The translations under genes were made by a program, and so were the position numbers. The notes beneath the pieces are model-generated. The model did not search any database and was not told the origin of the DNA. It worked only from the letters and a program-made list of their open reading frames with translations. Shown here in pieces: positions 23,551 through 34,072 of a stretch of DNA of 40,387 nt. The stretch comes from an uncultured Trueperaceae bacterium (GTDB lineage: Bacteria; Deinococcota; Deinococci; Deinococcales; Trueperaceae), in assembly GCA_913062675.1 (NCBI GenBank), contig CAJXWR010000011.1:1-40387 (forward strand). The letters run 5' to 3'. Position 1 is the first letter of the stretch. Each line of letters opens with the position of its first letter.

Positions 23551-24321
23551 TTACGGGTGGGCGAGCACCACGAAGTGTCGGGGTGACGCACCCACGGGTG
23601 CACGACCGAAATCCTCGAACGTCTGCACCCGACTGAAGCCTGCTTGCAGGACGGCGCGCTCGAGTTCGAAACGGTGCAGGTACCGCACCGTCAATTCGAC
23701 GTGGCGACGCGACACGCGTCCCTCCCCGTCGAGCGTCTCCACCTCGAAATCGTTGCGCAGCACCTGACGGACCGGGTCGTGCCACTGCACCCGCGTCACC
23801 TTCACCTCACCCCCGTCCATCCGGTCGTCCCGCAGTTCGAGGCGCGGCACGCCCTCCAACACACCCACGGGAGGTGCCATCATGTCGAAGGCGAAGAGGC
23901 CACCCGGCTTCGTGCATTGGTGGGCCGCCTGCAGGAAGGCGTCCTGTGCCTCCAGGCTCGCCGCGTGGAGCAGCACGTTGAAGGGTGCCACCACCAGGTC
24001 GCACGCTGCATTGGGCTCCGCTTGGGCGTACGCCTCGATCGTGTCGCCCCGCACCTCGACGCGCGTCGCACCCTCCCACGCCTCCTCCGTGAGCGCCTCC
24101 TGCAAGGCGAACCGCATGGCATCCGCCGGTTCGAGTGCCACGACCGCCTCCGCGAGACGCGCGAACTCGCGCGTCAAGCGTCCCGTCCCCGCACCAATCT
24201 CGAGCAGTCGACCGGGATGGTCGAGCGCCAGTGACCGGTAGAACGCCACGTCATCGCGGTACGAGCCGTGCAGCAACTCGTAGAACGCCACGTCGCCATA
24301 CGGATCGCGCGCGTGGCTCAC
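23551..24321 (-). CDS. SAM-dependent methyltransferase at the end of the lpx operon
   Basis: A 256-residue class I methyltransferase. Motif I is LLEIGAGTGRLTREFA, the acidic residue after strand 2 is in VVALEPADAM, and motif IV-like VVAPFNVLLHA and KPGGLFAFDMM follow. The small-molecule methyltransferase look (YxxL-YRDDVAFYRSLA at the N-terminus) is like ubiquinone or sugar-type enzymes; no substrate can be read. The GTG at 24321 overlaps the ABC exporter stop (GTGA), which fixes the start and places it as the last gene of the lpx run. A role in modifying the envelope lipid is possible from position only. Confidence 0.85.
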   Translation of the reverse strand: MSHARDPYGDVAFYELLHGSYRDDVAFYRSLALDHPGRLLEIGAGTGRLTREFARLAEAVVALEPADAMRFALQEALTEEAWEGATRVEVRGDTIEAYAQAEPNAACDLVVAPFNVLLHAASLEAQDAFLQAAHQCTKPGGLFAFDMMAPPVGVLEGVPRLELRDDRMDGGEVKVTRVQWHDPVRQVLRNDFEVETLDGEGRVSRRHVELTVRYLHRFELERAVLQAGFSRVQTFEDFGRAPVGASPRHFVVLAHP

Positions 24322-25943
24322 GGGGTCATCTCCACGATCTCGCCTTCCACGACGTGCCACACCCGGTGCGCCGCCCGCGGCAACGCTTCACGGTGCGCCA
24401 CGGCAATCACCAGGCGGCGTTCCGCCTCCCGCATCAACGTCTCCACCAGGGCCGCCTCGGCCTCCGCATCGAGGTTCGCCGTCGGTTCATCGAGCAGCAA
24501 CACGGCCGGGTCGCGCAGCAAGGCGCGCGCCACGAGCAGGCGCTGCCGCTGCCCTCCCGACAAGCCAGCCCCATCCTCGTCGAGGGTCGCATCGAGGTGG
24601 CCAGGCAAGCGCCGCACCGCGTCCGTCATGCCGACGTCCTGCACCGCCTCCCACACCCGCTCGTCCGGGACGGGACGTCCGAGCGTCAACGTGTCGCGCA
24701 GCGAGCCGCGCAACAGGTCGAGCGATTGCGGTACCCACGCCACCCGCGAGCGGTCGAGCGGCACGCCGTCAAGATGCACCGAACCGCGCTCCGCGGTGAG
24801 GAACCCGAGAAGGACCGACAAAAGGGTGGACTTCCCGACGCCACTCTCGCCCGTCACCACGACCAAACCCTGCGCCGGCGCGTGGGCGGACGCGCCGCGC
24901 AGCACCCAGTCCCCCTCGCCATGCCGCGCCCACAACTCTTGAAGCGTCAAACCCGATTCGCCACCCTCCAGGGTGCCCTCGACCACCGGTGGCTCGACCG
25001 TGGAAGCGTGTGCCGTGGGGGCGAGGAGGTCGTCCATGCGGTCGAGCGCAGCTTCCGCTTGCCGCAACAGTGCGTAGCCGCGCGGCAACAACTGTGCGGG
25101 CGTGGAGAGCAGCGCGACGAGCGTCAAGTACTCGACGACCTGCCCCACCGACATGACGCCCGCAGCGGCACGTCCTGCAAGCAACGCCACCAACCCAGCC
25201 AGGGCAGTGAACACAGCAATTTGCGTCACGGGCACCTGCAAGGCGGCAAGCACCGACCGCCGAGAGGCCGCGCGCCGCGTCGCCACGTTCGCCGCTTGGA
25301 ACCGGTCCAACATGAATCCTTCGGCATCGAATGCGCGCACGACCGCATGGTGCTTGAGGCCTTCCTGCAGGTCGGCCGCCACCGCCTCCGTGCCTGCCTG
25401 CGCCCGGTCGGCAGACGCGCGCAACCGCGCACCCAACCGTTCGAGCAGCCAGACGGCAGGCACGCCCAACGCGAGGAGGAGGAGCGTCGCGAGGGGAGCG
25501 CGCCACACCAGCACTGCAACGATGCCCAGCACCGCCACGCTTTCTGCCAGCAGCGTTCCCATGCCGTACTGGTGGAACGTTTCGACCTCCCGCACGTCGC
25601 TCACCACGCGGCCCGCCAGCCCACCCGACGTACCCGGCAGTCGACCCGGCGTGCGCGCCAACAGCGCGCGGTACGCCCGTTCCCGCAGCTGCGCCACGCG
25701 CACGGCCCCCCCATGCGCCAGCGCCGCGTCCTGCACCGCAAGGGTGAGCGCCATGCCCACCACCGCGGCGCCCGCCGTCAACAGAACGCCCGGCAGGGCA
25801 GCCAAGTCTCCCGCACCGATCACACGGTCGATGATGGGGGTCACGAAGAGAGGGACCACCGCCACGCGCAACGCAGCGGAGGTGATGGCGGCCACCACGC
25901 CCACGGCGCCCGGCCAGCCTGCAGGACGCAAGGCGGGTCTCAC
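24318..25943 (-). CDS. MsbA-like ABC exporter (fused membrane and ATPase domains)
   Basis: A 541-residue type IV ABC half-exporter. About six helices lie in residues 1-280, then a nucleotide-binding domain: Walker A GESGVGKS (365-372), Q-loop in WVPQSLDLLRGSL, signature LSGGQ (461-465), Walker B VLLLDEPTAN (481-490) and H-loop His517. All ATPase motifs are intact, so it can work as a homodimer. Sequence alone does not separate MsbA from drug or CydCD-type exporters. The position directly behind the lpxB-like gene, with a GTGA overlap, makes a flippase for the lipid product the leading idea. The start is GTG 25943. MsbA is about 580 residues, so this one is slightly short. Confidence 0.88.
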   Translation of the reverse strand: MRPALRPAGWPGAVGVVAAITSAALRVAVVPLFVTPIIDRVIGAGDLAALPGVLLTAGAAVVGMALTLAVQDAALAHGGAVRVAQLRERAYRALLARTPGRLPGTSGGLAGRVVSDVREVETFHQYGMGTLLAESVAVLGIVAVLVWRAPLATLLLLALGVPAVWLLERLGARLRASADRAQAGTEAVAADLQEGLKHHAVVRAFDAEGFMLDRFQAANVATRRAASRRSVLAALQVPVTQIAVFTALAGLVALLAGRAAAGVMSVGQVVEYLTLVALLSTPAQLLPRGYALLRQAEAALDRMDDLLAPTAHASTVEPPVVEGTLEGGESGLTLQELWARHGEGDWVLRGASAHAPAQGLVVVTGESGVGKSTLLSVLLGFLTAERGSVHLDGVPLDRSRVAWVPQSLDLLRGSLRDTLTLGRPVPDERVWEAVQDVGMTDAVRRLPGHLDATLDEDGAGLSGGQRQRLLVARALLRDPAVLLLDEPTANLDAEAEAALVETLMREAERRLVIAVAHREALPRAAHRVWHVVEGEIVEMTP

Positions 25944-27157
25944 GCCACGCCCTCGAGTCGGGCAAGCACGCGGTCGGCAATCCGACCCGCCGCGCCAGGC
26001 TCCGGCATGGTGGCCGCCAATCGGTCGCGGCGGTGCTGCAACCCCGCCTCGTCCCGCAGCATCGCCTCGAGGCGGTCCGCGAGATCCTCGGCGTTCACGA
26101 TGCCGGTGACCTCCTCGAACACACGCTCCCCGGCAATGCGGTTCGGCAGCGAGACGGGTTGCTTCATGCCCTCCACGAACGCGCGAACGGCCGCACGCTT
26201 CAACGGTTTGCCGACCACGGGCAGGAGACCCAGCCAGTGACCGATCCCTTCGAGAGGAATGCGTTCGGGCGCGTTCATCGGCAGCACCACCAGCGACGGC
26301 ACGCCCGCAATGCCCAGTTCCAACGTGTTCGTCCCCGGGATGGTGAGGGCTGCATGCGCGCTTCGTACGTGCGCCGTGCGAGCCTCCTCCTGCACCATCT
26401 CCACCTGCGCGCCGCCTGGCGTGACGACGCGGGCCTCATCACGCTGACCCGCCACGCCGCCGAGTACCTCCCGCTCCACCCCGTCGATTCCGGCCTGAAT
26501 GGCGTCCTCGCTCAACATGCGACTCACGGGCCAGATGAAGCGTGCGCCGGGCATGCGGGGCGCGAGTCGGTCGACCACCTCGAGGAACAACGGGATCAAC
26601 ACGCGAGCGAACGCATCTCGACTCCCGGGCAGGACGAGGACGTGCGGAGACCCGGCGTCTGCGAGCGGTTCGGCCGCACCGAGCGCGTCCGCCACCAGGT
26701 TGCCCACCACCTCGATCCGGTCGTTGGGGGTACCCAACCGCCGGGCGCGGCGCGCGGTTCGTTCGTCGGGTAGGTACAACCGGTCGAGTGCCCGGTGCCC
26801 ACCGGCGGTGAAGGCGTACCGCTGCAAGGGGTGCCCAAGCCGCCCCGCCAACGCTGCCGCCAGGTTCGCTGCCCCCCCGAGCTGCAGCACCACCCCACGC
26901 GTTGCGCCCAGGCCCTCGGGCGCACGCCCAGCCGGCACGGTGCGGAGGAACTGCGCGGGGGTCGTCACCCGCTCGGCACCCAACGTCGCGGCGATGTCCG
27001 CCTCGCGGCCCGACGCGAATTGGCAGGGCACCACGGCGATGCGAACGGGCAGGTCCGCGTCACGATCCCTCAAGGCATCGAGCACGGGGCGAAGCCACGT
27101 CAACAGTTCGCCAGGACCGTTGCTGATGAGGACGACCTCGCGGTCGCCTCGCGTCAC
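25940..27157 (-). CDS. Divergent LpxB-like glycosyltransferase (lipid-A-disaccharide synthase related)
   Basis: A 405-residue protein related to LpxB (GT19), the enzyme that joins UDP-diacylglucosamine to lipid X. The matches are VVGNLVADAL (150-159; E. coli VGHTMADA), VLPGSRDAF (175-183; E. coli LLPGSRGAE) and PGTNTLELGIAGVPSLVV. The N-terminal substrate loop of classical LpxB (GEASGD) reads SNGPGELLTW (12-21), the form seen in 'LpxB-related' proteins of other phyla. The first half is much diverged. It is translated from GTG 27157, overlapping the lpxA stop. Since it sits between lpxA and an exporter, the LpxB role is likely, but a different acceptor or donor is possible. Confidence 0.75.
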   Translation of the reverse strand: MTRGDREVVLISNGPGELLTWLRPVLDALRDRDADLPVRIAVVPCQFASGREADIAATLGAERVTTPAQFLRTVPAGRAPEGLGATRGVVLQLGGAANLAAALAGRLGHPLQRYAFTAGGHRALDRLYLPDERTARRARRLGTPNDRIEVVGNLVADALGAAEPLADAGSPHVLVLPGSRDAFARVLIPLFLEVVDRLAPRMPGARFIWPVSRMLSEDAIQAGIDGVEREVLGGVAGQRDEARVVTPGGAQVEMVQEEARTAHVRSAHAALTIPGTNTLELGIAGVPSLVVLPMNAPERIPLEGIGHWLGLLPVVGKPLKRAAVRAFVEGMKQPVSLPNRIAGERVFEEVTGIVNAEDLADRLEAMLRDEAGLQHRRDRLAATMPEPGAAGRIADRVLARLEGVA

Positions 27158-27924
27158 GCGCGCCCCCGAAAGGCGGAAATGCCGCGACGGCTGGCCGCGA
27201 TGAATTCACGCACGAACGCCACGTCATGGGAGGCATCCGCCAGCGCTTCGAAACCGCTGTCATCCCGCTTCCGCAGGGCGCGGAAGGCACGCTCGAGATC
27301 GCGGTACCGGTCCCCATCGATGCCGTGCCGCTTGAGGCCCACCCCGTTCAAGCGGTAGTGCTCCGCCATCGTGCCGCGCGCCAGGGCGAAGGGCAGCACG
27401 TCGCGGTTCACGGCGCTTGCCGCACCCACCATGGCGTACGCACCCACGCGCGTGAACTGGTGCACCATCGCCCCTGCACCCAGGGTGGCGTAGTCATGCA
27501 CCTCGGCATGCCCACCGAGCTGCACGGTCGTGGTGAGCACCACGCCCCGGCCCACCTGCGCGTTGTGCGACACGTGCGCGTAGCTCATGACGAGGGCGCC
27601 GCTCCCCACGCGCGTGGCGTTCCCGGTACCGGTGGCGCGGTGGATCGTCGCGAAGTCGCGTACCTCCACGTCATCGCCCACGATCACCTCGCTCGCCTCC
27701 CCGGCATGATCGTTGTCCATGGGGGCGCCCCCCAGCACGGCGTACGGCCCAAGCGTGCAGCGGGCGCCGACGCGCGTCCCGTTCAGCAGGACGGTTCCTG
27801 GGAGCAAGCGCGTGCCGGACGCCACCTCCACGTCCGCCTCGATGACGCACAACGGCCCGACCTGCACCCCGTCCGCCAAGCGGGCGGCGGGGTCCACGAC
27901 GGCGCTCGCGTGCACGTCGGCCAC
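27154..27924 (-). CDS. lpxA: Acyl-ACP:UDP-N-acetylglucosamine O-acyltransferase
   Basis: A 256-residue LpxA (E. coli 262), which transfers a 3-hydroxyacyl chain to UDP-GlcNAc or UDP-GlcNAc3N in the cytoplasm. Hexapeptide repeats fill residues 1-180. IHRATGTGNATRVG and MSYAHVSHNAQVG carry the catalytic His (H120, aligned with E. coli H125). VHQFTRVGAYAMVGAAS and GLKRHGI match the E. coli C-terminal part. At the chain-length ruler position (E. coli G173) it has Ala168. The GTG at 27924 lies 2 bases after the fabZ stop; the longer frame upstream would run into fabZ. Its TGA overlaps the lpxB-like start. Confidence 0.94.
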   Translation of the reverse strand: MADVHASAVVDPAARLADGVQVGPLCVIEADVEVASGTRLLPGTVLLNGTRVGARCTLGPYAVLGGAPMDNDHAGEASEVIVGDDVEVRDFATIHRATGTGNATRVGSGALVMSYAHVSHNAQVGRGVVLTTTVQLGGHAEVHDYATLGAGAMVHQFTRVGAYAMVGAASAVNRDVLPFALARGTMAEHYRLNGVGLKRHGIDGDRYRDLERAFRALRKRDDSGFEALADASHDVAFVREFIAASRRGISAFRGRA

Positions 27925-27926
27925 GC

Positions 27927-28346
27927 TTACACCCGGTACATGAACGACAGCGACGCTTCGGCCGCCACGTCCCCATCGACCCGCGCTTCCGCCGACACCT
28001 TGCACAAGCCGCGACGGAAGGTGAGGATCTCCCCGTGCAGGTGCAGCACGTCACCGGGCACGACGGGCCTGCGGAAGCGTGCCCCATCCACCCCGGCGAG
28101 GTAGCCCACCTCGCCTCCCTCGAACCCCTCACGCGCCGCGAGGCCCAACCCCGCCGCTTGCGCCAAGGCTTCGAGAATCAACACGCCTGGCATGACGGGT
28201 TCGCCCGGGAAGTGTCCCTGAAAGAACGGCTCGTTGTACGACACGTTCTTCACGGCGTGGAAGGCGTCCCCCTCGAGACCGAGGAAGCGGTCGACGAGCA
28301 GGAAAGGATAGCGGTGCGGCAGGACCGTCTGGGGCGTGTTCTCCAT
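27927..28346 (-). CDS. fabZ: 3-hydroxyacyl-ACP dehydratase FabZ
   Basis: A 139-residue hot-dog-fold dehydratase of fatty-acid elongation. [12 protein letters not shown] at the start and [19 protein letters not shown], with the catalytic pair His45 and Glu59, define FabZ. It competes with LpxA for 3-hydroxyacyl-ACP, and fabZ beside lpxA is the classical arrangement in Gram-negative bacteria. The ATG lies 5 bases after the oxidoreductase stop. Confidence 0.95.
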
Positions 28347-28351
28347 GCCGG

Positions 28352-29380
28352 TCAGTCTACCTGAGGGGTTAGGACCTTCTCCGCCCAGGCACCCACCTCG
28401 ACGTCGGCGCGGGTGGGGACGACGCTGGGCGTGATGCGGCGCCGCAAATCGCTCGCCACTTGCAGGGAACGCAAATCGTCGTCGAGCGTCCCGATGGGAG
28501 GCGCACCGTTCAAGATGCGGTCCAGGAAGTGCGCCAACTCCTCCCGAAGCGGATTGTCCTCCGCCACGACGTGCCGATCGGTGCGGACGTGGGTGTCCCC
28601 CTGGGCGTCGCGGTGCGATTGGTACACCGCCACTTCGGTGTGCGGCTCGCGTAGAAAGTCGACGCGGAAGGTGCGGTCCTGCTCCGCCACCACGAGGCTC
28701 CGCTCCGCGTCGGGGGAGACGCGGGAGGCGAGGAAGCGGGCAATGCAGCCGTTCTCGAAGGTGAGTTGCGCGGCGGCCACGTCCTCACCCCCATGGTCGG
28801 GATGCACGACGTGACCCGAGACGCTCACCTCGGCAATCTCGGAGGGAACGAGGCTCAACACGATGTCGATGTCGTGAATCATCAGGTCGAGGATCACCCC
28901 GACGTCGGTGATGCGTGCGTGGGGCGTGAGGCGGCGCGCCTCGATGAGGTAGGGAGCCTCCACCCGCTCGGTCAGGAGTCGAACGGCGCGGAAGAAGCGC
29001 GTGATGTGACCCACCTGCAGGACCAAACCGAGTTCGCGGGAGCGGGCGGCAAGCTCGCGCGCGGCGTCCACCTCCACCGTGACCGGCTTCTCGACGAGCA
29101 GGTGCACCCCGGCGTTCATGAGTTCATGCGCGAGGGCGTGGTGCTTGGTGGTGGGCGCGACGATGCTGGCCGCCTGGATCGAGGTGGCCGCGAGCAGGCT
29201 GGCCACGTCGGGATAGGCGGGGCACCCGAAGCTCGCCTCGGCACGCGCTCGCGCCGTGGGGTCGGGATCGACGATGGCGACGAGTTTCGCGTTGGGGAGC
29301 GAGAGGTAGTTCTGCGCGTGGTGGCGACCCATGACGCCCGCGCCGATCACGGCGACGGGGACGCGGTCACGGCGGTTCAC
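28352..29380 (-). CDS. Gfo/Idh/MocA-family sugar oxidoreductase (possible UDP-GlcNAc 3-dehydrogenase, GnnA-like)
   Basis: A 342-residue NAD(P)-dependent dehydrogenase. The Rossmann motif is [13 protein letters not shown] (8-20) and the catalytic-lysine motif is [19 protein letters not shown], with its HDID motif, places it among sugar dehydrogenases acting on nucleotide sugars. It lies between lpxC and fabZ and starts with a GTG overlapping the lpxC stop. In Acidithiobacillus and Leptospira a GnnA of this family oxidises UDP-GlcNAc at C3, and the aminotransferase GnnB then gives UDP-GlcNAc3N for an amide-linked lipid A. No GnnB-like gene is in the window. A GnnA role is inferred from position; other sugar oxidations remain possible. 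Confidence 0.82.
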
Positions 29381-30165
29381 GCGCTTACGCCTTGACCCTC
29401 GAGGTCGAGCACGTGGCGGGCGAGCCGTACGTGGAGGTCGTGCCCCCCGCGCGCGACGCGGAGACGCCCGTCGAAGGGTTGGCCGAGGAGGTACGCATCT
29501 CCGAGCGCATCGAGCGCTTTGTGGCGAACGGGTTCGTCGGGGAAGCGGAGAATCGGGGGCACATCGTCACCGAAGACGATAGCATTCGCGTCGCTCGCCC
29601 CTCGCGCAAATCCGGCTGCCCGCAGCGCTTCGGCGTCGCGTGCGAACCCGAACGTGCGGGCCTTCAGCAGGTCGGCCCAGGCTTCGGGCCCGCCGGTCCA
29701 GCGTTGCGTCCCCACGTGCGGATGGTCGAACGCGATGCTCACGTCGAGCTGGCGCGCCCCAGCGTCGAGACTGGCCATGCGGCCGTCCCCGTCGTCGATG
29801 CGCCCCCGCCAGGACCGTGGAGGGGGCGCGGCGGGGAAGGGGTCGAGCGTGGCGAGGGCCTCGTCCCAAGGGGCGGCGGAGCCGTCGAGGATGGGGAGTT
29901 CCTCCCCGTCGATTTCGATCAGCAGGCCCTCCCAAATGCCGCGGACGTGCAGGGCGGCGAGCAGGTGCTCCACCATGCCGATGCGGACGCCGTCTTGGGC
30001 GAGGGTCGTGGCCCCGCGCGTGTCCACCACGTGACGTACGTGAGGGGTGAGCGTGACGCCGGAGGCGAGGAAGCGGACGGCGCCGTCGACGCGGTGCAGG
30101 GTGACGCGCGTCGTGACGCCCGAGTGCACGCCCACGCCTTGCAGGTGGGCGGCCGCTTCGCTCAC
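29377..30165 (-). CDS. lpxC: UDP-3-O-acyl-N-acetylglucosamine deacetylase
   Basis: A 262-residue LpxC, the zinc enzyme of the committed step of lipid A synthesis. GVGVHSG (10-16) starts the fold. The zinc ligands are H67 (VEHLLAAL), H215 and D219 ([11 protein letters not shown]), and the general-base Glu66 precedes the first. H242 (GGHDLHVRL) matches E. coli H265; the spacing of the last three residues (4 and 23) is the same as in E. coli. KARTFGF is conserved. At 262 residues it is shorter than E. coli (305), but no catalytic residue is missing. The GTG at 30165 overlaps the lpxD stop. Confidence 0.93.
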
Positions 30166-31226
30166 GCGTCGGGAGTCTCTGAACGCTTTGCGTCGCGCGT
30201 CGCGGTGCACACGAATTGCCAGATTCGTTCGAGGTTGCCAATTAGGTAGCGTTCGCGCACCCACTGCCGCATGGGGGTGGCGGGAAGCCCGCCCCAGGTT
30301 TCCCCGGCGGGGATGTCCTTGGAGAGTCCCGATCCACCGGCGAGGGATGCCCCGTCGTGCACGGTGAGGTGGTCGCTGATGCGTGCACCCCCTCCGATGC
30401 GGACGCCGTCGCCGATGCGGGTCGACCCGCCAATGGCGACCGTGCCGGCGATGAGGGTGTGACGACCCACCTCCACGTTGTGACCAATCTGGCAGAGGTT
30501 GTCGACCTTCGTGCCGGCGCCAATGCGCGTGGCGCCGAGCGTGCCGCGGTCGATCGTGGTGTTCGCCCCGATTTCGACGTCGTCCTCGATGACGACCGTG
30601 CCCAGGTGGTGCACCTTCTCGGCGCCATCTGGACCTGCGGCGTACCCGAAACCGTCGGCGCCAATCACCGCGCCGGCGTGCACGCGGACTCGTGCACCGA
30701 GCCGAACCCCGGGATACAGCGTGACGTGGGGGAAGAGTCGCGTACCGGCACCGACGTGAACGTTCGGGCCGATGATGCAGCCCGCGTCGATGATGCAGCC
30801 CGCCTCGACGGTGGCGCCGGAGCCGATGACGACGTGCGGGGCGAGCGTCACGTCGGCCTCCACGTGGGCATCGTCGGCGACGATGGCGCTTGCCGCACGC
30901 CCCGGAGCGGGGCGCGCTTCGGCGTCGAAGAGGGCGGTGAGTTTCGCGAACGCAAGGCGAGGCGCGTCGTGGCGAAGGACGGGAGGCGCACCTTGGGGCA
31001 CCTCGAGGTTCGCTGGCACGACGAGGGCGGCCAGTTCGTTGCCGTTGGAGGCGTTCAGCGTGGCGTGCAGTTGCTCGGCATCGTCGATCGTGACGACGTG
31101 TCCCGCTTGCGGCATCGTGTGGGTCGACAAGCCGGTCACGGTGACACCCTCGAGCGTGGTGGGATCGTCGGGCGTGGCGCCGATGCGTCGAGCAAGCTCG
31201 GTGAGGGGAAGGGGGTGTGGCTTCAT
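30162..31226 (-). CDS. lpxD: UDP-3-O-acylglucosamine N-acyltransferase
   Basis: A 354-residue LpxD, which adds the second 3-hydroxyacyl chain after LpxC. The N-terminal uridine-binding domain (about 1-110) is followed by left-handed-helix hexapeptide repeats and a C-terminal helix. [10 protein letters not shown] and [15 protein letters not shown] are the family motifs, with catalytic H249 equivalent to E. coli H239. The length is close to E. coli (341). The ATG overlaps the stop of the S55-like gene (ATGA). A canonical OmpH/Skp or bamA neighbour, usual in proteobacteria, is absent. Confidence 0.94.
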
Positions 31227-32920
31227 GGGGTGTTCACCTCCGCATCGGTCGTCGTGTCACTCGCCGAGGGGGTCTCGCTGGCGACGACCGTGACCGTGAC
31301 GTGCTGCACGCCGGTCACGATGGCGCCGTCGTCTCCTCCAAGGTCGAGGCGGGTGAGGCGACGGGGCCGATCCTCGCCGGGCGCTTCGACGAGCAGGTCG
31401 CGCGCCTTGGGTCGATTCTGCAGCGCGGCGAGCAGTTCGCCCCACGATACGATGGGCGGCAGGTCACTGATCGCCTGTTCGAGAGGGTCCCGATCCTCGT
31501 TGGCGACGAGGTTCTCGCGCTCCGGATCGGGAATCGTCGCGCCGCGGAGGGTGAGGCGGAGCGGTCCCTCCTTCACGTCGTCGGGCACCTTGATCGACAA
31601 CGTCCGGACTTCGGCTTCCGCGCGGTACGGCTGCAACCGGATGAACGCCTGCACCGTGCCGCCGGGCGTGACGGTGGGCGTTTCGAGCGCAACCTCGACG
31701 AGTTCCACTTCCCTCGGCGCGTCGAACGTGCGGACGTGCACGTCGATGCCTGCAAGCCGTGGATCCTGGAACGGGTTGCGGGTCAGCACGGCGATGGGCG
31801 CTCCGGCAAGGCGCGCAGTGGCGGTGGCGAGGTCGACGTTGGAGCTTCGGTCCTCCTGCAGGGTGATGTCCCGTTCGTTCTCGAAACCGATGCGCCACGC
31901 CACCGTGGCACTCCCACCACGAATGGCGTCCCGCACGTCATCGATGGCGGTGTGGACCACGGTGGCCACGACGGAGGGAAGCAGATCGGGGTCGCGCGTG
32001 ACCTGCACGTCGACCGTCTCGCTGCCCATGGGCCCCTCGATCGTCACGCGGAGGGGCACGTCGCTGGGCGACACCGCGCGCGTCGCGGCGAGACCGGCTG
32101 CCGCGTCGCGGTGCACGGTGGCGAGGGCGGTCCTTCCGACGTTGGCGAGTTTGTAGGGAATGCGTCGACTGGGCACGATGGCTGTGACGTTGGCCGGAAC
32201 GACGGCGAGGGCGCTCGCACCGCGCCCGAGCAGCGGGTGCCCGAGGAGGAGCAGCTCGTCGCCCGCTACGTCGGTCAGGGTTCCGACGACGGCGATGGTG
32301 ACGTCCCCGCGGGCCAGGGCGATGCCGATGGCGTCGCCGGGTTGGAGCGTGGTGGGGTCTTGTGTGACGTCCGCCGTACCGCCCACTTGCAGGGGAAGCA
32401 GCGTTTGCCCCGCCGCCTCGACGAGCGGCGCGAGGTGCGTTTGCGCCCGGATGCTGAGGCCACTCACGAGGAGGGGCGCTTGCAGCGCCACGGCGGTGCC
32501 GACGTCGAGTTCGACGCGTGGGGGTTGCGGTTTCGTGAGGTTCCGCATCGCTTCGATGGGGGTGAGCAGCGCGAGCGTGTGGTCGGTGTCGGGGAACCCG
32601 TAGGCGAGGGCGCCCGCGAGGCGGGGTACGCCGTCACGCTCGAGGTAGACGGGACTTCCACTCATGCCGGCGGCCACCCCGCCGACCGATTCGAGGAACG
32701 CGCCGGAGGTGCGCACGAGAATCGTGGGGAAGGTCGGGCCGTCGGGTCGTTGCACGCCGAGGACCTCCACGTCGAAGCGCGCAAGCCCGTTGGGACCCGC
32801 GGTCACGCCGTAGCCGACGTCCCCAACGCGGATTTCGTCGAGGGGAAGGTCTTGGGCGACGCTCCACGCGAGGAGTGTGCACGCGAGGAGAAGCAGCAGC
32901 GTGGCGAGCGGGCGCGCCAC
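31223..32920 (-). CDS. Exported SpoIVB-type (S55) peptidase-domain protein
   Basis: A 565-residue protein with a signal peptide ([22 protein letters not shown]). Residues 30-280 match the S55 domain: [24 protein letters not shown] near the start and [13 protein letters not shown] with the presumed nucleophile Ser89. [15 protein letters not shown] could carry the His. The rest (about 290-540) has a beta-rich C-terminal region with no family I recognise, ending in a Thr/Ser-rich tail. It is not a sporulation gene here; S55-domain proteins occur in many non-spore-formers with unknown role. The start is GTG (32920), 7 bases after the mreB stop, and the end overlaps lpxD. A link to cell-envelope control is inferred from this position. 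Confidence 0.85.
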
Positions 32921-32927
32921 GAACGCC

Positions 32928-33968
32928 TCAGCGCCGCAGGAAGTTGTCGGAGATCAACGCGTCTTGCAGGACGTGCAGCATGTCGAGTGCCTGCCCCGTC
33001 CCGAGTGCCACGGCGTCCGTCGCGTTCTCCGCGACGATGACGGGAATGCCGGTCGTGCGGCGCAGCAACTCGTCGAAGTTCGCGAGCAGGCTGCCACCTC
33101 CGGTCATAATGATACCGCGGTCGATCACGTCGCTGACGAGTTCCGGGGGCGCCTTCTCGAGCACGCGGCGCACACCGTCGGCAATCTTCTGGATGGGTTC
33201 CTCGAGCGCTTCGACCGTGTCGCTGGTGCGGACGGTGATCGTCTTGGGAAGGCCGTTGATGAGGTCGCGACCGCGCACTTCGAGGGTGCGGTCCTCCTCG
33301 TCCTCACGCAGCATGGCGGCGCCAATCTTCGTCTTGATCTCCTCGGCGGTACGTTCCCCGATGAGGAGGTTCTCCTTGTGGCGGATGTAGCGGATGATGG
33401 ACTCGTCGAACTCGTTGCCGGCAATGCGGAGGCTTTCGCTGACGACGATGCCGCCGAGGCTGATGACGGCCACGTCGGTCGTGCCGCCGCCAATGTCGAC
33501 GATCATCGAACCGCTCGGCTCGGCGATGTTCACGCCCGATCCAATGGCGGCTGCGAGCGGTTCCTCGATGAGGAAGGCCTTGCGGGCCCCCACCTCGCGG
33601 GTGGCTTGCAGCACGGCGCGGCGCTCCACCTCGGTCACGCCGGAGGGGACGCACACCATGACGTGGGGCCTGAAGAAGCGTCCGGGGCCGGTCACGACCT
33701 TGCGGACGAACGCTTGCAGCATCTTCTCCGTCAGGTCGTAATCGGCGATGACGCCGTCCCGCATGGGACGCACCGCGGTGATGTTGCCGGGCGTGCGGCC
33801 GAGCATGTTGTACGCGTCTGCGCCCACGGCCTTCACCTCGCCGGTATCGCGCACCATGGCGATGACTGAGGGTTCACGCAGCAGGATGCCCTGCCCTTTC
33901 ACGTAGATGAGAACCGTGGCGGTTCCCAAGTCCACGCCGATTTCCTGCCATGGTTTGAATCCGAACAT
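32928..33968 (-). CDS. mreB: Rod-shape-determining protein MreB
   Basis: A 346-residue actin-like ATPase that guides lateral cell-wall growth from the cytoplasmic face. GVDLGTATVLIYVKGQGI (phosphate 1), VCVPSGVTEVERRAV, DIGGGTTDVAVISLGG (phosphate 2), GERTAEEIK, and IMTGGGSLL (adenosine motif) are standard. MreC and MreD do not follow; an S55-type protein and lpxD do instead. The ATG at 33968 is chosen over the two upstream GTG codons since GGAG lies 5 bases before it and MFGFKP suits the family. Confidence 0.96.
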   Translation of the reverse strand: MFGFKPWQEIGVDLGTATVLIYVKGQGILLREPSVIAMVRDTGEVKAVGADAYNMLGRTPGNITAVRPMRDGVIADYDLTEKMLQAFVRKVVTGPGRFFRPHVMVCVPSGVTEVERRAVLQATREVGARKAFLIEEPLAAAIGSGVNIAEPSGSMIVDIGGGTTDVAVISLGGIVVSESLRIAGNEFDESIIRYIRHKENLLIGERTAEEIKTKIGAAMLREDEEDRTLEVRGRDLINGLPKTITVRTSDTVEALEEPIQKIADGVRRVLEKAPPELVSDVIDRGIIMTGGGSLLANFDELLRRTTGIPVIVAENATDAVALGTGQALDMLHVLQDALISDNFLRR

Positions 33969-34072
33969 CACCACTCCAAGCCCCGTCGAGGAACGCGATG
34001 GTTCCCGCGTGTAGGTTCGTTTGGGTCGAGCGTCACCGACCGCGGGTAGGTGGGCAACGCAACGATGCTACG

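Follow-up and report, generated by a model that had tools for sequence, protein, structure and literature searches.

Which enzyme is encoded by a gene that sits among lpx genes, carries landmarks of LpxB in its C-terminal half and lacks the N-terminal loop of LpxB? The question is raised by a stretch of 40,387 nucleotides (the window, i.e., the whole stretch of DNA analysed) from an uncultured Trueperaceae bacterium of the phylum Deinococcota (assembly GCA_913062675.1, contig CAJXWR010000011.1), where the gene at 25940..27157 was described in an earlier note as an LpxB-like enzyme with a changed N-terminal substrate loop. LpxB is the lipid A disaccharide synthase, which forms the beta-1,6 tetra-acyl disaccharide-1-phosphate from uridine diphosphate (UDP)-2,3-diacylglucosamine and lipid X. 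The protein of the window is something else, namely a member of a separate and unnamed sister family of LpxB, called here NGPGEL after its motif, which forms a third clade of the LpxB superfamily beside LpxB and TIGR03492; in Deinococcota, its gene lies in a shortened lpx operon that has no other LpxB-like gene.

A third clade of the LpxB superfamily

The gene, followed by the motifs of its product in protein numbering, is as follows:

25940..27157, minus strand: NGPGEL-clade glycosyltransferase of GT-B fold, LpxB superfamily; 405 amino acids, GTG start at 27157, stop at 25940
Residues 12-21: SNGPGELLTW
Residues 152-159: GNLVADAL (GNLVAD, 152-157)
Residues 177-180: PGSR
Residues 274-280: PGTNTLE (IPGTNTLELG in the sequence)
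Residues 337-339: LPN

Read on the plus strand, 25940..27157 gives no such protein. The C-terminal landmarks named in the earlier note, i.e., GNLVADAL, PGSR and a Gly-Thr-rich loop (IPGTNTLELG), are indeed in the sequence and the donor side is kept; likewise, SNGPGELLTW stands in place of the GEASGD-type loop, the four canonical LpxB proteins compared having GExSGD there (GETSGD in Escherichia coli). Against family profiles, the window protein scores 18.9 bits with TIGR00215 (LpxB; cut-off 190.25), over residues 172-214 only (E=5.5e-4), 20.7 bits with Pfam LpxB (PF02684; cut-off 22.6, E=2.2e-4) and 26.5 bits with TIGR03492 (cut-off 219.2), the best-scoring profile and itself LpxB-related. The resemblance to LpxB is faint, yet greater than chance would give. 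The profile search thus gave neither a full-length match to canonical LpxB with all its active-site residues (E15, S17 and D98 are not kept) nor a better match to an unrelated glycosyltransferase family. The single protein sequence found no match in the PDB.

Relatives were gathered by scanning genome contigs with two peptide patterns, the best 80 of 582 being kept, a selection that leaves out other phyla, e.g., Negativicutes and Halanaerobiales; the proteins from 55 of these 80 loci and the window protein make up the alignment A4 (56 rows). Of the residues invariant in the 56 aligned sequences, namely N13, G16, E17, W21, P24, G50, E52, G94 and G95, the first five establish that the motif is shared across the family and no peculiarity of the window protein. 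The clade spans Cyanobacteria, Synergistota, Armatimonadota and Deinococcota, with members also in a Bacillota and an Aerophobetes metagenome-assembled genome (MAG). Among named relatives, Trueperaceae MAGs come nearest (L082, 70% identity), and no match was found in a plasmid collection; the host assembly, which is incomplete (2.5 Mb, about 90% complete), holds the gene in one copy.

A profile built from 35 relatives has LpxB as its top match in the PDB (E=6.4e-17), and the profile-profile comparison of the NGPGEL family with three canonical LpxB proteins gave E=9.5e-25 (probability 99.6, 324 columns); the window protein is therefore a member of the LpxB superfamily. Membership does not extend to either known family. 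Among 35 clade members scanned at E 0.01 or better, TIGR00215 was matched by 33 and TIGR03492 by 26 (best 1.5e-12), the top member (L119) reaching 79 and 47 bits, respectively, far below both cut-offs, and no NCBIfam model was reached above its cut-off by any of the 35, the Pfam scan covering the window protein only. A maximum-likelihood tree with 65 rows places the NGPGEL proteins of A4 (56 rows, 100/99), LpxB (four rows, 100/99) and TIGR03492 (five rows, 100/100) in separate clades, with long branches for E. coli LpxB and the TIGR03492 half of a fused protein from L132. In the open-licence literature, no paper was found naming the NGPGEL clade or setting it apart from LpxB.

In another alignment (A2), cyanobacterial clade members have PGSK and GANTAE where the others have PGSR and GTNTLE. 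The clade thus holds subfamilies, which may differ in donor.

Coexistence with LpxB outside Deinococcota

Do genomes with the NGPGEL gene also have a true lpxB? Among whole genomes of non-Deinococcota NGPGEL loci searched, 20 of 21 give a strong match to Pfam LpxB (86 to 347 bits), the one without a match being a Prochlorococcus record of 1.4 Mb; of the cyanobacterial genomes tested, 12 of 13 have LpxB in addition to the NGPGEL gene. In four Meiothermus genomes, only a weak Pfam LpxB match is seen, at the NGPGEL gene. In L132 and L138 (Synergistota; the msbA-type gene of L138 being cut by the contig end) as well as in L120 (Bacillota MAG), the NGPGEL gene is immediately preceded by canonical lpxB and immediately followed by an msbA-type gene. 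L119 (Aerophobetes MAG) has a partial lpxB some 1.2 kb upstream of the NGPGEL gene and an msbA-type gene at a greater distance downstream. L120 and L132 additionally contain a TIGR03492 gene and an lpxI-type gene, the latter with 142 and 98 bits, respectively (cut-off 400). A canonical LpxB with a mutated loop was ruled out by the profile scores, the residue alignment, the separate clade and this coexistence with true LpxB; as such, the view of an LpxB-like enzyme in which merely the loop had changed does not stand.

In L132 (11265-13508; Synergistaceae UBA4088), LpxK is fused to a TIGR03492-type (SNGHGED) domain in a protein of 747 amino acids, which suggests that the TIGR03492 family works there with the lipid A 4'-kinase. 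Around the cyanobacterial NGPGEL loci, the flanks examined yielded no lpx gene and neighbourhood clustering gave lineage-wide synteny only; Prochlorococcus/Synechococcus-type loci show a weak match to an ATP-binding cassette (ABC) transporter about 5 kb from the NGPGEL gene.

The order lpxB-NGPGEL-msbA in L120, L132 and L138 speaks for a tailoring or first-core transferase, i.e., an enzyme that would put a plain sugar from a UDP-sugar onto a lipid A-type precursor before the flip by MsbA, possibly its role in Synergistota and Cyanobacteria. The same can be said of the pair formed by msbA with an NGPGEV or NSPGEV gene in L127 and L146, where the flanks examined hold no lpx genes, of a UDP site retained when the donor acyl groove of LpxB is gone, and of one Deinococcota genome (G084, see below) that retains the gene despite missing lpxC and lpxD. 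The sampled Deinococcota, however, have no recognised LpxB to make a disaccharide for decoration, and yet keep the gene as strictly as LpxC, which leaves this a rather doubtful account of the gene, yet a serious rival to the reading preferred below.

Residues and predicted structure

Where does the protein depart from LpxB? The roles of E. coli LpxB residues follow passages of PMC5785501, and the alignment is by sequence, D98 falling in its least alignable part. On the donor side, P198-G199-S200-R201, T277, E281 and N316 of E. coli LpxB correspond to P177-G178-S179-R180, T276, E280 and N339 of the window protein. Among the 56 clade members, 19 have K in the R201 column and 17 have A in the T277 column. 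On the acceptor side, the window protein has P15, E17 and Q92 where E. coli LpxB has E15, S17 and the predicted base D98, and the D98 column is variable across the 56 members. The stretch from E280 to N339 is 24 residues longer than that from E281 to N316 in E. coli LpxB, the extra part being at about 301-324; residues 305-336 include five basic residues and one acidic, a composition from which this segment may touch the membrane.

An AlphaFold2 model built from the 56 sequences has a GT-B fold (mean predicted local distance difference test score 95.2, predicted template modelling score 0.92). Its top fold matches are UDP-N-acetylglucosamine (UDP-GlcNAc) 2-epimerases, which rank first in Foldseek (E 1.3e-11; LpxB 5w8n third, E 6.3e-10, probability 1.00) and VIA-align (Z 24.9, 331 residues aligned, root-mean-square deviation 4.4 Å; MurG 21.7), LpxB being outside the best 50 of the VIA-align list, an absence without evidential weight. 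These matches would fit a non-transferase, namely an enzyme resembling the non-hydrolysing UDP-GlcNAc 2-epimerases, with a UDP-sugar of the pathway as its substrate. GT-B folds match broadly, though, and the swap of the LpxB C-terminal domain lowers its single-chain fold score, for which reasons the fold ranking was set aside as deciding evidence. Since, moreover, the PDB profile search favours LpxB, with epimerases reaching E 0.19 at best, and no epimerase family in Pfam or NCBIfam matched the window protein at E 0.01, an epimerase is very improbable.

The operon

The neighbourhood is transcribed in the order mreB, a 565-amino-acid protein, lpxD, lpxC, a Gfo/Idh oxidoreductase gene, fabZ, lpxA, the NGPGEL gene, an MsbA-like exporter gene and a methyltransferase gene:

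32928..33974, minus strand: mreB, upstream end of the conserved neighbourhood (NF010539, 479 bits; synteny)
31223..32920, minus strand: 565-amino-acid protein, signal-like N-terminus, GMSGSPV motif, no Pfam or NCBIfam match
30162..31226, minus strand: lpxD, N-acyltransferase (NF002060, 330 bits, cut-off 207)
29377..30264, minus strand: lpxC, deacetylase (Pfam LpxC, 190 bits; TIGR00325, 162.7 bits, below cut-off 187)
28352..29380, minus strand: Gfo/Idh/MocA oxidoreductase (Pfam GFO_IDH_MocA; NF040723, 168 bits, below cut-off 450)
27927..28346, minus strand: fabZ (NF000582, 170.5 bits, cut-off 113)
27154..28005, minus strand: lpxA, UDP-GlcNAc 3-O-acyltransferase (NCBIfam NF003657, 254 bits, cut-off 226)
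24318..25943, minus strand: gene of an MsbA-like ABC exporter, immediately after the NGPGEL gene (TIGR02203, 202 bits, below cut-off 602)

The NGPGEL gene overlaps the upstream lpxA and the downstream msbA-like gene by 4 bases each (GTGA in both cases), and is thus likely translated together with them. LpxA, LpxC and LpxD keep the residues that we take to be catalytic, namely, in E. coli numbering, His125 of LpxA (His147 in the window), Glu78, His79, His238, Asp242 and His265 of LpxC, and His239 and His276 of LpxD, so that the early part of the Raetz pathway is present in the window; LpxA differs at other E. coli positions (K76 to D, G173 to A and H191 to M). The GMSGSPV motif of the 565-amino-acid protein is known from S55-type peptidases, and in 6 of 7 stretches from the family of the window, the gene of this protein separates mreB from the lpx genes.

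In 20 stretches fetched from four families, fabZ-lpxA-NGPGEL is found 19 times, and the full set lpxD-lpxC-gfo-fabZ-lpxA-NGPGEL-msbA 12 times. The Gfo/Idh gene alone is missing from L032, L043 ends before lpxC and L046 is without lpxC and lpxD; msbA, the NGPGEL gene, lpxA and fabZ were seen in L031, L034 and L038, L033 is without msbA, and just the NGPGEL gene and an MsbA-like gene on the opposite strand were found in L037.

The nearest named family of the Gfo/Idh protein is UDP-N-acetylglucosamine 3-dehydrogenase, by which resemblance it is possibly GnnA-like. According to a passage of PMC7663294, gnnA and gnnB of other bacteria are proposed to make the 3-acyl chain amide-linked. By analogy, the gene could mean an amide-linked 3-acyl chain here and, to go by its family, it may point to a 2,3-diamino sugar; it was not found in four stretches fetched from family f3.

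A shortened pathway in Deinococcota

How much of lipid A biosynthesis remains around this enzyme was examined in 111 Deinococcota genomes. The NGPGEL gene is present in 62 and LpxC in 61, with 59 genomes having both, three the NGPGEL gene only (G030, G084 and G089), two LpxC only (G073 and G098) and 47 neither, and the Fisher test on this co-occurrence takes no account of kinship. No full-length LpxB was found in any of the 111, the best stretch matching Pfam LpxB with 27.4 bits (35 when summed over one frame). Matches to this model occur in 49 genomes, with a short stretch passing the low cut-off in 44, and lie within the NGPGEL gene in 48 of the 49; in G098, LpxC is present and the LpxB model finds a partial match, but the NGPGEL protein finds none. 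Neither LpxH, LpxI, LpxK nor KdtA was found in any of the 111 genomes, the E. coli or Caulobacter controls being positive, and LpxL-type acyltransferases are present in six (five above cut-off), with none in the host genome of the window, which is about 90% complete. The evidence is good for the separate clade, for its occurrence beside LpxB and for the stripped pathway.

Two further families extend beyond the lpx genes. A TIGR03492 gene is present in 80 of the 111 genomes (79 above cut-off), including 13 of the 27 g30 genomes (probably Thermus), which are without LpxC, so that TIGR03492 cannot depend on lipid A there. LptF/LptG-type permeases are present in 110 genomes, including those without LpxC, and may carry another lipid in Deinococcota.

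In the relevant passages, Antunes et al. (2016; PMC5007114) infer that the ancestor of Deinococcus/Thermus had an outer membrane with lipopolysaccharide (LPS), and use Pfam profiles for LpxA, LpxB, LpxC and LpxD; as such, lpx genes in Deinococcota are not new. Because the Pfam LpxB match in the Deinococcota lpx operon is the sister enzyme, lpx genes together with an LpxB profile match do not alone show a lipid A disaccharide.

Donor, acceptor and product

What, then, does the enzyme make? Our preferred reading, tentative and somewhat short of probable, is that of a UDP-sugar-dependent and probably membrane-associated GT-B transferase, whose donor would be the UDP-2,3-diacylglucosamine of LpxA, LpxC and LpxD and whose acceptor would be other than lipid X. 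Three steps would follow one another: LpxA, LpxC and LpxD would make UDP-2,3-diacylglucosamine, the likely product given the residues retained; the NGPGEL enzyme, with its LpxB-type UDP site, would transfer the acylated glucosamine to the acceptor; and the MsbA-like transporter would flip the product. Lipid X is an improbable acceptor, given that LpxH, LpxI and LpxB were not found in Deinococcota and that the clade occurs together with LpxB in other phyla. A change of acceptor or product, as suggested in the earlier note, is plausible, the altered substrate being, like the identity of the donor, the class of the acceptor and the order of the steps, what we infer.

Several points weigh against this reading, in the first instance regarding the donor. 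In the uracil pocket, V233 and G261 of E. coli LpxB are replaced by S212 and R260. The groove V125/W126/W128 of E. coli LpxB, where donor acyl chains were docked in the part of PMC5785501 concerned with it, is without counterpart in all 56 clade members, which speaks for a plain-sugar donor and against an acylated one; the donor could indeed be a plain UDP-sugar, since the LpxB contacts to UDP do not read acyl chains. Furthermore, G084 (Trueperaceae bacterium bin86, a single-contig MAG; loci L046/L084) keeps the NGPGEL gene, lpxA, fabZ and msbA, whereas LpxC is missing genome-wide and no significant lpxC or lpxD match lies between the genes for the 565-amino-acid and Gfo/Idh proteins; unless the assembly has a gap, the enzyme there needs no UDP-2,3-diacylglucosamine. 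Regarding the acceptor, passages of PMC3087551 report that Cyanobacteria have only lpxA, lpxC, lpxD and lpxB of the nine genes and make LPS without 3-deoxy-D-manno-octulosonic acid (Kdo), heptose and phosphate, so that a missing LpxH is no proof of missing lipid X; a pyrophosphatase not yet recognised could provide it, and Cyanobacteria seem to need such an enzyme.

From there it is a short step to a functional substitute of LpxB, taken into use after LpxB was lost in Deinococcota and working on lipid X supplied by such a pyrophosphatase, which would lead to a reduced lipid A without phosphate and Kdo, similar to the cyanobacterial one. The gene is the sole LpxB-superfamily gene of the operon and comes right after lpxA, i.e., at the place of lpxB in E. 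coli; the main donor residues are identical to those of LpxB, the co-occurrence with LpxC is tight, and both the cyanobacterial LPS (PMC3087551) and the LPS outer membrane of the Deinococcus/Thermus ancestor (PMC5007114), as described in those passages, would fit. By contrast, E15, S17, D98 and the Trp groove are not retained on the acceptor side, LpxH and LpxI are missing throughout the Deinococcota sample, and true LpxB accompanies the clade in 20 of 21 carriers outside Deinococcota, so that its older role was probably distinct. All told, a substitution of this kind is rather doubtful, yet it too is a serious rival to the preferred reading.

A more specific idea is that the Deinococcota lpx operon makes an acyl-glucosaminyl glycolipid instead of lipid A, the NGPGEL enzyme putting an acylated amino sugar on a glycerolipid. 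In Meiothermus, the product would be a glycolipid with a hexosamine bearing an amide-linked 2- or 3-hydroxy fatty acid; in Cyanobacteria, it would be a second and so far unrecognised product of the lpx genes, made in addition to lipid A. According to passages of PMC3035268 and PMC3035272, a dihexosyl-N-acylhexosaminyl-hexosyl-diacylglycerol lipid is present in every Thermus and Meiothermus examined. Also in favour, a passage of PMC3111992 records that no glycolipids were detected in Oceanithermus profundus, and the f4 genomes except G009 are without the NGPGEL gene (Oceanithermus-like, and Marinithermus-like for G009, by inferred labels). However, neither the NGPGEL gene nor LpxC was found in the 27 g30 genomes, nor an LpxC match in the control Thermus composti; as Thermus apparently makes the same lipid class without them, the idea is weakened. 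In addition, the published lipid is described with an amide acyl chain only, whereas a sugar acylated at both positions 2 and 3 would come from LpxA and LpxD, and the fatty-acid passage on Truepera radiovictrix names no hydroxy acids (PMC3072082). Such a glycolipid is a distinctly improbable product.

If, as in the preferred reading, the lpx enzymes feed another lipid, the presence of LPS needs a new interpretation in phyla of this kind. A glycosyltransferase clade that extends over Cyanobacteria, Synergistota, Armatimonadota and Deinococcota would then gain a testable pathway, with Meiothermus taiwanensis and M. granaticius as named hosts.

Comparison with known systems

With MurG and the UDP-GlcNAc 2-epimerase WecB, the NGPGEL protein shares the GT-B fold, without a significant sequence-profile relation (E 0.38 for MurG and 0.19 for epimerases). 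TIGR03492, labelled "lipid-A-disaccharide synthase-related protein" as a hypothetical equivalog in NCBIfam, is closer, with the LpxB superfamily and PGSR in common and an SNGHGE-type loop in some of its members; it differs by SNGHGED where SNGPGEL stands here, by its separate clade (100/100) and by the lack of equivalents of E281 and N316 in the five rows compared. The host genome of the window has a true TIGR03492 gene elsewhere (G000:C18:17365-18498, 268 bits). LpxB itself (GT19; TIGR00215, PF02684; E. coli b0182) is similar in GT-B fold, PGSR, the T and E donor residues, LPN, alignable C-terminal regions and the place after lpxA in the lpx operon. Unlike LpxB, the NGPGEL protein belongs to a clade of its own (100/99), has NGPGEL.TW for GExSGD, neither the Asp98 base nor the Trp126/Trp128 groove and 24 extra residues between the equivalents of E281 and N316, and coexists with LpxB itself in 20 of the 21 non-Deinococcota carriers tested. 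The cyanobacterial homologues are set apart by flanks in which the examined part holds no lpx genes and by PGSK and GANTAE for PGSR and GTNTLE; together with those of Synergistota, they nonetheless share with the window protein the same clade, the same invariant residues and 25-32% identity.

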